Below are positions 48,488 through 54,056 of a stretch of DNA of 64,000 bases, piece by piece. The notes beneath the pieces were generated by a model. That model was not told where the DNA came from. It worked only from the letters and a program-made list of their open reading frames with translations, and made no database searches. This DNA comes from Crambe crambe (Eukaryota; Porifera; Demospongiae; Poecilosclerida; Crambeidae). Both the position numbers and the translations under genes were made by a program. Position 1 is the first letter of the stretch; each line of letters begins with the position of its first letter. Location of the stretch: NCBI GenBank assembly GCA_963924555.1, contig OZ004589.1:3100001-3164000 (forward strand), given 5' to 3'.

Positions 48488-48517
48488 CGGTAGATTGCAA
48501 AAAAAACGTTGCACCAT
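48488..48517 (+). repeat. Left terminal inverted repeat of the Tc1-BEN element
   Basis: 30 bp starting CGGTAGATTGC, matching 54027-54056 inverted except at three positions. It is preceded by the TA duplicate. Confidence 0.9.
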
Positions 48518-48759
48518 CTCGCGACAGCTCCATTGGTTCGCGAGCCACTCAATCCATCACGCCCTCAACGAAGGAAGCACTTGTCAACTGAGGCAAACCA
48601 TGTAGCGAGGCTGATCGCGACTGTGGGCAAGGCTCAAAACCACAGCTTCGCGAGACCGTATCGCGACTATGGGCAAGGCTCAAAACCACAGATTCGCGAG
48701 ACCAGTTCTCAAACAGTGAATCAATTCCAGCCAGCAAGTGAGCCAGCGCTGCTAAAGTC

Positions 48760-49040
48760 ATGGACATAAGGCAGCCTGCAAGTCAGATTGTCCAGCAACC
48801 TGCGAGCCAGCCAGCAATTGCAAGCCAGCCAGGAAGTCAGCCAGGAAGCCAGCCAGTAAGCCAGCCTGCAAGCCAGCAGGGAAGCCAGCCAGGAAGCCAG
48901 CCAGTAAGCCAGCAGGAAAACCAGCCAGGAAGCCAGCCAGGAAGCCAGCCAGCAAGCCAGCAGGAAAACCAGCCAGCAAGTCAGCCAACAAACCAGCAGA
49001 GTGGGCAGTCAGAAAGCCAACCAACAAGCCTTCCAGCAAA
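48760..49040. repeat. Coding minisatellite (agccagccagga-type)
   Basis: Imperfect 12-bp units encode Q-P-G/A/V-S repeats in exon 1 of the BEN gene. The opposite-strand open frame ([12 protein letters not shown]) is a shadow of it. Confidence 0.85.
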
Positions 49041-51871
49041 TAATGGTGGAAAGACTGCAGCAACTAAACCATCTGTTACTCGCTCTAAGCGAATTGTAGC
49101 ATCTAAATCAGCTCAATACTACATCAGATATGAAGGAAATGGCTCACAGAAATGGGATGGACGTGAAATCGTGATGGATGCAGAATTTATGGAGTCCCTG
49201 TACAAGAAAGAAGAGCTTGTACCAGGAAAGACTGTAGAGCTGCCTTGGGAAACTGGTGGCAAAACTGAGGTATGGAAGGGAGTGATCATTGAATCATCCA
49301 CAGAAAAAACTCCTTGTAAGTTCACTCTGCATGGGAGGCCTTCATAATTAATGTATACATGGCTTATCTTTCCAGCTAAAAAACCACAAAAGAGAAGGCC
49401 ACCCAAGAAGAAAGCTATAGCCAGTAAACAAAGTGAGTATATACGTATTTAAACTATAATCGTATTTTATTATTAATTTTATTTCCATTCTTGCAGAGAA
49501 GCAAGGCAGCATCATCACAGTGGGTGGGGATTATATACCTTCAACTACAGGTATATTATTCTCTCTCTCTCTCTCTCTCTCTCTCTCTCTCTCTCTCTCT
49601 CTCTCTCTCTCTCTCTCTCTCTCTCTCTCTCTCTCTCTCTCTCTCTCTCTCTCTCTCTCTCTCTCTCTCTCTCTCTCTCTCTCTCTCTCTCTCTCTCTCT
49701 CTCTCTCTCTCTCTCTTCTCTTTCTCTTGAAGCATAATTGACCTAATTAATGTATATATATTCTCTAACTGGTAGTCCAGTTGTGGGAATTAGGTGGGTT
49801 TTGTTGACATTATGCCAAGATGACCTATATATATTTGCTCTCTAATTTTAGCTTCAGGGAGTAGTGCTCATCAGAAGAAAAGGAAAGGTTTGTTGACCAT
49901 GCATGCATAATGAAGCCATTGCATAGCATGAGTGTGCTAAGTTGTGGGTGCATGCATGAGAGCTAAAGCTGTTGTCTCACCACTGTTGTTTTAGTCATTG
50001 CATGCCAGACCTTTGATGTCTATATTGTGTATGTAATTGTGAGAGCTAATTCTGTACAGGGTTTTCTTGGCCATTGGGAGGTCTATATAGTATTACAATG
50101 TTTCGTATGCAGGAGCAACTGTGGAAAAGCCAACAGTTTCAAGCATTCCTGCAGGTGACAACACAGTTGGCATTCCTGGAGGTGACAACACATTCAGTAA
50201 GCATGCAAGGTTCTATACATATCTAGGATATCGATTTTGGAGGGGGATCTTACTTATTTTGGGGGAAGTTAAATGGCATTTATGATGATCCATGGTGACT
50301 AAGTTTATAAATGATGCACGTATGTGATGTCTCATTTGGAGATTGTTATGTATCTTTTTTCTCTCTCCATAGTTTCTCGGCTTCTTGAACAGCAAGGTCA
50401 ACTAATGACTCTATTGACGAGTATGGTTTTACAGCAGCAATCACAAGCTACCGCTCTTCTCTCTCAATATCAATCTCCCGTTAACTTAGTCACCCAGAAT
50501 TCGCCTCAACAATTACTCCAATTTCTTCACCAATCACAATCACAGTTGCCACTTCAGCCTCAGACTCAGTCATCTCAATTGCCCAACTTTTCGTCTTCTC
50601 CAGGTTCGTTTCAGCAACTTTTACGGCAACTGCCCCTCAATCTTTGTTCCCAAGCCCCAACTCATTCTCAGCAATTAAGTACAAATCATTCTCAGCTTAA
50701 CTCTCAGCCAGCAAATGTCAGGTATTCACAGGCAGCAACTACACCTTCAACTCAGCTCCTCCAGTCTGTTCTTTCATCCCAACCATCTCTATCACACAAT
50801 GAGCTAACTCCAGTTTATTCACAGCAATCTCAGGGTGACAGCAGTCTCTTCCCAAACATCTCAACTCAATACCGAGTCCACTCACAGTCATCTCGACCAA
50901 ACATTCAGCCGTTCAGTCCAGCCTATTCCCAACCTTCTCATAATTCCCAGTCTGATAACTTCCAGCCATCTCAGCCGTCAACTTACCACTCCAATACCCA
51001 GTTGTCATCAGTTCAGCTGTCATCGACTCACATGCAGCCATCAGCTCAGCAATCACCTTTTGAGCTACTGTCTCACCGGTCTTCGCATCTAGCAACTCCT
51101 CATCCTTCCGATGGTGTTACTCAGCAATTTCAGTCACCTCAACCCTTCTCTCCAACATTATCTGACCCATCTTCCTCTTTTTCACATCATTCAGAAATAT
51201 CTTCTGAAGGCACTTCCCGTGTGGGAGGTGGAACCTCATCCAATGGTTCACAAAAACAAGGTGACTGCATCATCCTGGATGAATTTTCGTGGGATGATAC
51301 TGCAGGAGAGGACTCTGATTACATGACATGGGATACAGACAATACTGATAGTACATTAGCTCCACGCAGTTCTGGGATCACACCAGCTGATCATACATTA
51401 GCTCAACCCATAGAAAGAGCAGAGGTCACATTTCAGCCATCAGGTAATCATATGTGGGCTCCAGCCTCGACTTCTTCAGAGTCACCACTGGCTTCAAGAG
51501 AAGAAGTAGTTCAGCCACCAGCTATACCACCACCGTTTGATACACCTCCAAAATTGTGTTCGGTGCAGCAGGTATTGAAGAATTACCCTGGTAAGGACGT
51601 TGCCAGCTTAAGATCACTTACAGTTGCTTTAGCAAGGGATGCAATATTTGGACGTGAAGCACTCTCAAAATGCAGCTTAAGTGGAAGAAAAGGTACTGGT
51701 GTTTTGAGCCAAGAGAAAGTCCGGTATATCAAGCAACTTGTCCATTCTAGAGTTCCAAAGAAGTCGTTGGTTGACTTTGAGAACATTTGGAGCATGTGCA
51801 GACTCTCACTTTCTAAGTCATGTCAAACTCTTCGAAACAGTGCTCGCAAGAAACTTCTTCCTGAGAATTGA
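48760..51871 (+). CDS. BEN-domain protein, passenger gene of the Tc1 element
   Basis: Six exons: 48760-49315, 49376-49432, 49497-49550, 49852-49887, 50113-50196, 50373-51871. All have GT-AG edges and all five introns are phase 1; 2286 nt, 761 aa. The N-terminus is a [12 protein letters not shown] minisatellite repeat (~1-95). A folded stretch follows ([20 protein letters not shown] ... [10 protein letters not shown], ~120-175), then small basic Lys/Arg exons ([12 protein letters not shown]), likely nuclear localisation. A long Gln/Ser-rich region leads to a C-terminal BEN domain (~655-761: [45 protein letters not shown]). BEN domains bind DNA or chromatin proteins. It could act in regulating or targeting the element or be captured host cargo; the sequence does not decide. 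Confidence 0.85.
49561..49716. repeat. (CT)n microsatellite, ~78 repeats
   Basis: Uninterrupted CT run in intron 3 of the BEN gene, starting ten bases after the donor. As a pyrimidine tract on the sense strand it may influence splicing. Confidence 0.97.
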
Positions 51872-52433
51872 GTACTGCATTATTCACTACTATGTTGATT
51901 ATTATTAACTGCTGATATTAGCTCTATTATTCATTGCTGATTTCTATTGTTTCTGGTAATGGGGGTATATTTCTGATCATTAAGGCAATTCCAAAATAAT
52001 TATGGATTTTTCTCCCTTCTCATAGGGATGCAGGGAGGACAAAACATAAACTACCTTAGTATACTATGCGTAATGGCATCTCTGAGTTTGTATGGGTCAT
52101 GTGTTCTAGTATACAAAGATTAACAGCAGTATACTGGGATTCTAGTAAAGCAGTATATCATGATATACAAAATAGGGCAGGGAAATCTGTTAAACCAGTA
52201 ATCTATTTTGAACTGCCTAAGCAAAGTTTGAACTCTGGGTGACCATCAGAATCTGAACTAATCATGTAGTAAGAAATAGTTGGTGTGGTTTAATTTGCAT
52301 TTGGAGTGCGTGTATAATAATTAGTTATAGTCTCAGCACAGCAGCAAAAAGATCTTTATTATTATTAAGCAACAAAATGTATACTGTTCAGTGTGTTGAG
52401 TACGAGTGTATAGATAGCTGTATTAGCTAATCT

Positions 52434-53441: not shown

Positions 53442-53444
53442 GCC

Positions 53445-53689
53445 TATTTGCACAGTATGGTAGGACTAGTAACAAAGGGGGGAAAATGGATTAGTAAAAT
53501 GCAAAAAAAAAAAAAAAAAAACAAACAAAAAAACATAAAAACACAAAAAAATAAAACAAAAAACGAGTAAAACAGTGCAGATCAACATCATGCAGTAGCT
53601 AGCTACATTCGGTTGTTCAGTGAGAAACTATAGTCAGTGAATAATAGCTAGTTCGCTATAAGAAACATGCATCTAGCTAACTAACATAC
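53445..53689 (-). other. Probable leader intron of the transposase gene
   Basis: On the minus strand a strong donor (ggaaaag|gtatgttag) in the right arm and an acceptor (gtgcaaatag|gc) just before the ATG bound a 245-bp intron containing an A/T homopolymer stretch. The same donor is conserved in the solo end at 44110-44533. Confidence 0.55.
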
Positions 53690-54026
53690 CTTTTCCTGAA
53701 GAACTGAAACAAGAAATGTACGTAGCTAAACAGGCAGTGACAGCGTTAGTATCTTCTCACTGAATTCGAAATTCAAGTAACGAGAGCTCTGCACCAGCGC
53801 TTCATGTCTTTAAAGCCAGCACTTTCGTGAAGTGCTCGCGAAGTATCACGACATTTAAGAAGTGCTATCATAACACCTCGCGACCTTCATGAACTGCTAT
53901 CATAACACCTCGCGACCTTCATGAACTGCTAACATAATACCTCACGACCCTGTGGTAGGCTCCTCCAATTCATATATTTCCTTTGTGGTAAGCCTCGTAA
54001 CAAGTGTCTCGTGAACTGTCACGAGC

Positions 54027-54056
54027 ATGGTGCAAAGTTTTTTTTGCAAAGTACCG
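54027..54056 (-). repeat. Right terminal inverted repeat of the Tc1-BEN element
   Basis: 30-bp partner of the left end. The adjoining right arm to ~53630 carries three copies of a ~32-bp direct repeat (contains cgcgaccttcatgaactgct). Confidence 0.9.

Follow-up and report, generated by a model that had tools for sequence, protein, structure and literature searches.

The textbook picture of Tc1/mariner elements is that of transposons with a single protein, and typical Tc1 members measure 1–2 kb and carry one intronless gene. In the CACTA group (Spm/En), the protein TnpA recognises repeated subterminal motifs, with both motif and protein varying between subfamilies (PMC2613891), and PIF/Harbinger elements encode a Myb-like protein, which in zebrafish Harbinger3_DR binds to a subterminal motif (PMC9710019). 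Multi-gene Tc1/mariner elements of ciliates (Sardine, Thon, Anchois and Tec) contain an additional tyrosine recombinase and hypothetical frames (PMC3464196), and the TnpA of Tn3 reads ends with a BEN-like fold (PMC9579193), all four accounts being taken from the available portions of these papers. The stretch described here, a 64,000-nucleotide segment of the sponge Crambe crambe (contig OZ004589.1, positions 3,100,001–3,164,000 of the forward strand; hereafter the window), contains a two-gene Tc1-like element of 5,569 bp at 48488–54056, positioned between TA dinucleotides. By analogy with the systems above, this element is probably a two-protein transposon, in which a BEN-domain protein would serve as an accessory, putatively end-binding and regulatory partner of the transposase.

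A Tc1-like element with a BEN gene

The TA target duplication (48486–48487 and 54057–54058) encloses a left inverted end with the tip CGGTAGATTGC (48488–48517) and a right inverted end (54027–54056). Counted with the TA, the inverted arms (48486–48517 and 54027–54058) are 32 nt long and 91% complementary. The pattern of the tip, CGGTAGATTGC plus TA, has 32 matches in the genome, against 3 for a backwards control. The element splits an exon of a host gene, a fibronectin-III-like exon on the minus strand (48326–48485 and 54059–54304). Fusing the flanks at a single TA yields an unbroken fibronectin-III-like frame, so that the borders are exact, and the size of 5.57 kb and the ends of about 30 bp given in the original prediction are borne out by the arms, the TA and the restored frame.

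The transposase gene (minus strand, 53441–52434) is free of introns and stops and encodes 335 residues, which align with Sleeping Beauty (E = 6.8e-30) and match the DDE_3 profile (5.6e-23). The catalytic residues are D152, D238 and E273, with 34 residues separating the last two by hand count on the alignments, as expected of the intact DD34E enzyme that had been predicted. Its N terminus gives matches to HTH_32 (27.1 bits) and HTH_Tnp_Tc3_2 (17.6 bits), each under the curated cut-off.

Convergent with the transposase is the BEN gene (plus strand), which encodes 761 residues in six exons without an internal stop; its five GT-AG introns are predictions from splice consensus and reading frame. 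Exon 1 (48760–49315) contains a variable SQPA/SQPG repeat followed by a conserved N-terminal region with a weak, sub-threshold match to Spin/Ssty. Four short predicted exons follow (49376–49432, 49497–49550, 49852–49887 and 50113–50196), and exon 6 (50373–51871) comprises a glutamine-rich stretch, the BEN domain (approximately 51540–51850) and the stop codon. Against the Pfam BEN profile, the window protein scored 18.3, 21.7 and 22.2 bits in three runs, all below the cut-off of 23.2, and 12 of 14 aligned relatives matched the profile at E ≤ 0.1 (best 1.3e-7). The only Protein Data Bank (PDB) sequence matches of the element BEN family were to BEND3 (best E = 0.099); two other PDB sequence searches with element BEN sequences returned no BEN-domain chain, and no BANP chain was among the PDB matches at E ≤ 10. 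The predicted convergent, six-exon gene thus holds, with its exons as predictions and most of its aligned relatives matching BEN, and both frames in the window are unbroken, as had been supposed. The SQPA/SQPG repeat (48786–49061), a 12-bp coding repeat, varies in length from copy to copy.

Four queries, namely each of the two ends, the final BEN exon and the transposase, were run against the genome of origin (143 Mb, 119 contigs). Five near-identical copies were found, A in the window and B–E at C10:5.92 Mb, C10:1.64 Mb, C5:3.10 Mb and C12:6.96 Mb. They differ by 0–1.8% per region over ungapped positions, except at the interrupted left end of E (3.0–3.4%), where a 2.2-kb insertion is nested behind the TA-flanked left tip. 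The flanks of the five copies differ from one another; as B–E repeat the layout of A in other surroundings, chance is excluded as the origin of the two-gene organization. The TA duplication and terminal inverted repeats of Tc1/mariner are both present, with TA on either side in copies A–D. Both genes are intact in A and E; in B the transposase is intact and BEN is frameshifted in the exon 1 repeat, in C BEN is intact and the transposase frameshifted, and in D both are broken, BEN by an early stop that also lies in the repeat. BEN sits between the same ends in two older copies (F and G, on C3) as well, so that all seven copies of the subfamily with recognizable ends enclose it, and no insertion boundaries of its own were seen inside A–G. 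A BEN relic at C11:5.52 Mb has no transposase match within 12 kb. Changes among the young copies are too few for dN/dS to decide on selection.

Arrays of TCGCGA at the element ends

The hexamer TCGCGA occurs nine times in the window element, exclusively in its first 212 and last 221 bp. Six sites form a left array at 48519–48699 (starts 48519, 48538, 48615, 48648, 48661 and 48694; element bases 32–212), and three form a right array at 53836–53915 (starts 53836, 53878 and 53910; bases 5349–5428 of 5569). A solo right end of the element (44110–44534, minus strand), 96% identical and approximately 4 kb from the full copy, has three TCGCGA; apart from it, the remaining 58 kb of the window contain one. 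A relative on C13 (4,888 bp, with its own TA-flanked ends), whose ends give no alignment with those of the window element at E 1e-3, has all 11 of its TCGCGA within its initial 142 and final 272 bases. In both elements, TCGCGA heads the hexamer ranking of the termini. When the terminal 300 + 300 bases were shuffled 2000 times with dinucleotides preserved, the counts peaked at 3 and 4, so that neither observed count was reached; the 23 remaining palindromic hexamers of equal composition each occur at most twice in the two sets of termini. The C13 element is itself enclosed by another inverted repeat, which spans about 7.8 kb (C13:2127983–2136400).

Across the genome, three TCGCGA at short distance were found at 19 distinct places (34 overlapping matches, against 8 for the backwards control), of which 16 are ends of these elements and one lies on C29; those on C69 and C70 are unexplained. 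The C29 place, a 0.24-kb unit (L075 932–1171), has five TCGCGA and inverted ends flanked by TA; it may be a non-autonomous relative or belong to another family. No TCGCGA was seen at four distant Tc1-like transposase loci (22–26% identity, 2.4–2.5 kb each), a coarse control in which the ends were not located and one locus (L071) has one of the family's BEN relics about 1 kb away. Elsewhere in the window (9967–10695), four CGCGCG runs at a spacing of about 240 bp are perhaps a tandem repeat.

Both arrays are located beside the tips and upstream of the two start codons. We propose that the BEN protein contacts the arrays at both ends with its last helix, probably in oligomeric form. Since the arrays separate the tips from both start codons, their occupation could regulate the two genes, switching or limiting both, and array-bound BEN protein may assist in holding both ends for the transposase. 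This proposed binding to the element's own CpG-motif arrays takes the place of the earlier guess, in which BEN regulated host silencing or target choice.

In the available parts of the papers on BANP, an animal BEN transcription factor, the protein binds CGCG within TCTCGCGAGA (PMC10206803), contacting DNA mainly through the last helix, and each palindrome takes up two molecules (PMC11472053). In oligomeric form BANP fails to bind sites that are fully methylated (PMC11472053), though another group reports that its BEN domain alone binds irrespective of methylation (PMC10206803). By analogy with the oligomer, the element protein may bind only where the CpGs are unmethylated, and the activity of the element would then depend on how far its ends are methylated. 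The last helix of the element protein, SLSKSCQ, is invariant or nearly so in a 40-row alignment (39 of 42 BEN relatives), and a hand placement puts its Ser-Lys pair at Ser313-Lys314 of BANP, in which Ser313, like Arg316, contacts bases. Orthology of the element gene with BANP was considered and is not supported, there being neither a BANP chain among the PDB matches at E ≤ 10 nor, by hand alignment, an equivalent of Arg316.

BEN and transposase across the family

Transposase matches in the genome (95) were reduced to 31 places, one per locus, at identities of at least 36%, leaving out Tc1 matches at 20–27%; likewise, 39 BEN matches gave 31 places. A BEN match lies within 12 kb of 21 of the 31 transposase places, convergently in every case and at transposase identities down to 57%. 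A second gene is therefore kept with the transposase gene, as in two-protein transposons. The ten transposase places without BEN are seven short fragments, each aligned over at most about 120 residues, and three on the small contigs C26, C58 and C70 (56, 49 and 36% identity). The ten BEN places without a transposase within 12 kb include six of the window type (51–85% identity) and four at C5:5.61–5.64 Mb (26–31%). The latter (C5:5609210–5638012) look like a host gene group; the two genes examined carry two BEN domains each and resemble the BEN of the C9 element described below.

Comparison of the window element with its C13 relative gives pS 0.73 and pN 0.26 for the BEN domain, and pS 0.77 and pN 0.19 for the transposase (Nei–Gojobori, with synonymous sites near saturation); because pN is well under pS in each, both have been conserved as proteins over this distance. 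The original prediction had offered a captured host gene as an option. Recent capture by this subfamily or by one copy is not supported, since BEN is common to relatives whose transposases are 57–75% identical. Over five subfamilies, BEN and transposase identities correlate with r = 0.14, a low congruence that is due to the C9 subfamily.

The C9 element (4,148 bp, TA-flanked ends) recurs on C10; over the 2,667 bp compared, the two copies are 98.4% identical. The C-terminal part of its transposase is that of an ordinary family member (64–71% identity). Its BEN domain is only 26–30% identical to the four other subfamily BENs, versus 57–67% among those four, has a different last helix, and groups with the two-BEN genes of C5 in a small tree (31–39% identity, support 0.94). 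The element has one terminal TCGCGA; its terminal 600 bp contain 29 of its 36 AACG/CGTT sites, against a mean of 11.5 and a maximum of 22 in 2000 shuffles. The window element has four terminal AACG/CGTT sites against a shuffle mean of 4.9, that is, no excess. A repeated subterminal motif, another feature of two-protein transposons, is thus present as TCGCGA in A and the C13 relative and as AACG in C9. The C9 data fit a joint change of BEN reader and array, in a single case in which the N-terminal region of the transposase changed too. Tentatively, and with more doubt than confidence, end recognition could be seen as a swappable, methylation-sensing module in which BEN reader and CpG array (TCGCGA or AACG) switch together, perhaps through uptake of a BEN gene related to the host group, with the transposase core and the tips staying alike.

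In other hosts, transposase-alignment scans of viral and genome contig collections gave 22 and 35 pattern matches, of which none was confirmed as a copy. A protein collection contained 42 BEN relatives and 3249 transposase relatives; with one of 120 of the latter that were compared, three BEN relatives share the exact length of the longest contig (32159, 656817 and 4828), which suggests linkage, and two more agreements at short values (1638 and 1708) are probably chance.

Alternative explanations and comparison with known systems

Some Tc1 elements have several transposase sites per end, and the arrays could be such sites, with BEN regulating other targets. Residues 1–125 of the C9 transposase, 50% identical to those of the window element (71% for C13), have diverged along with the array, which could accordingly follow the transposase. 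This explanation seems unlikely, given that TCGCGA is a short, irregularly spaced palindrome and the core of the motif of a known BEN protein, BANP, and that the C9 BEN domain differs far more than the C-terminal part of the accompanying transposase. Alternatively, a host BEN protein, BANP-like or from the C5 group, might bind the arrays to drive the element, with the element's own BEN acting elsewhere, for example against silencing. BEN genes do exist outside the family, namely the C5 group and a C3 gene above the Pfam cut-off. The AACG array, however, accompanies a different element-encoded BEN domain, and TCGCGA clusters are almost confined to the elements, so that clustered targets for a host factor would be scarce elsewhere; we regard a host reader as distinctly improbable. 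That BEN is a host gene carried along as a passenger, with no part in transposition, is very improbable, in view of its retention and conservation across subfamilies, always in convergent orientation, even though it has predicted introns where the transposase has none, and its frame is broken in two of the five young copies (B and D), as is the transposase frame (C and D).

Several observations weigh against BEN as the reader of the arrays. Arg316, which contacts bases in BANP, has no match in the last helix of the element protein by hand alignment. Tandem duplications of 44 and 32 bp account for part of the array in A, the element at C3:3.07 has just one TCGCGA near each end, and the stretches around the transposases at C8:5.45 and on C17 have none, with five at the far end of the C17 element. 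Only two array types were seen, the AACG motif was picked after viewing the hexamer ranking, and its co-occurrence with a different BEN domain is accompanied by the divergent transposase N terminus discussed above. In the BEN domain, the nearest C13-type copies differ by nonsynonymous and synonymous changes at 3:1, 4:0 and 5:1; this excess, as expected of decaying copies, leaves recent selection on BEN without support.

A chromatin-type DNA-binding gene retained over a long period, with matching motif arrays in the ends, would show that the Tc1/mariner superfamily is also capable of the two-protein mode known from CACTA and Harbinger. BEN transcription factors of animals could then have a mobile source, or sink, in such a family, and transposition would gain a testable connection to CpG methylation. 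No transposon-encoded BEN protein was found in the literature searched, which did not extend to Repbase or most subscription journals, so that an earlier description is possible; the words BEN and BEND are absent from an article on transposon-derived transcription factors (PMC10027918).

Among known systems, the element resembles the DD34E Tc1 group (Sleeping Beauty) in its TA duplication, inverted ends and transposase, and differs in its size of 5.6 kb, its second gene, BEN, with predicted splicing, and its terminal CpG-motif arrays. With BANP it shares the BEN domain, the CGCG motif found in TCTCGCGAGA and a palindromic site (PMC10206803 and PMC11472053, available parts); BANP is a host gene, its Arg316 is unmatched by hand alignment, and the element BEN finds only BEND3 in the PDB. 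Multi-gene Tc1/mariner elements are already known from ciliates, with other extra genes; these likewise combine a Tc1/mariner-type transposase with further open frames, and the available portion of PMC3464196 mentions neither a BEN gene nor such arrays. As far as the available accounts go, PIF/Harbinger elements are similar in having two genes, the second DNA-binding, and belong to another superfamily with another DNA-binding domain, and CACTA elements share the repeated subterminal motifs and the second protein, both varying between subfamilies, although in the sponge family we only infer binding; the CACTA transposase and ends are unrelated, and TnpA is not a BEN protein. By the features compared, the element is a Tc1 transposon, whose accessory gene and terminal arrays most likely work as their counterparts do in CACTA and Harbinger.

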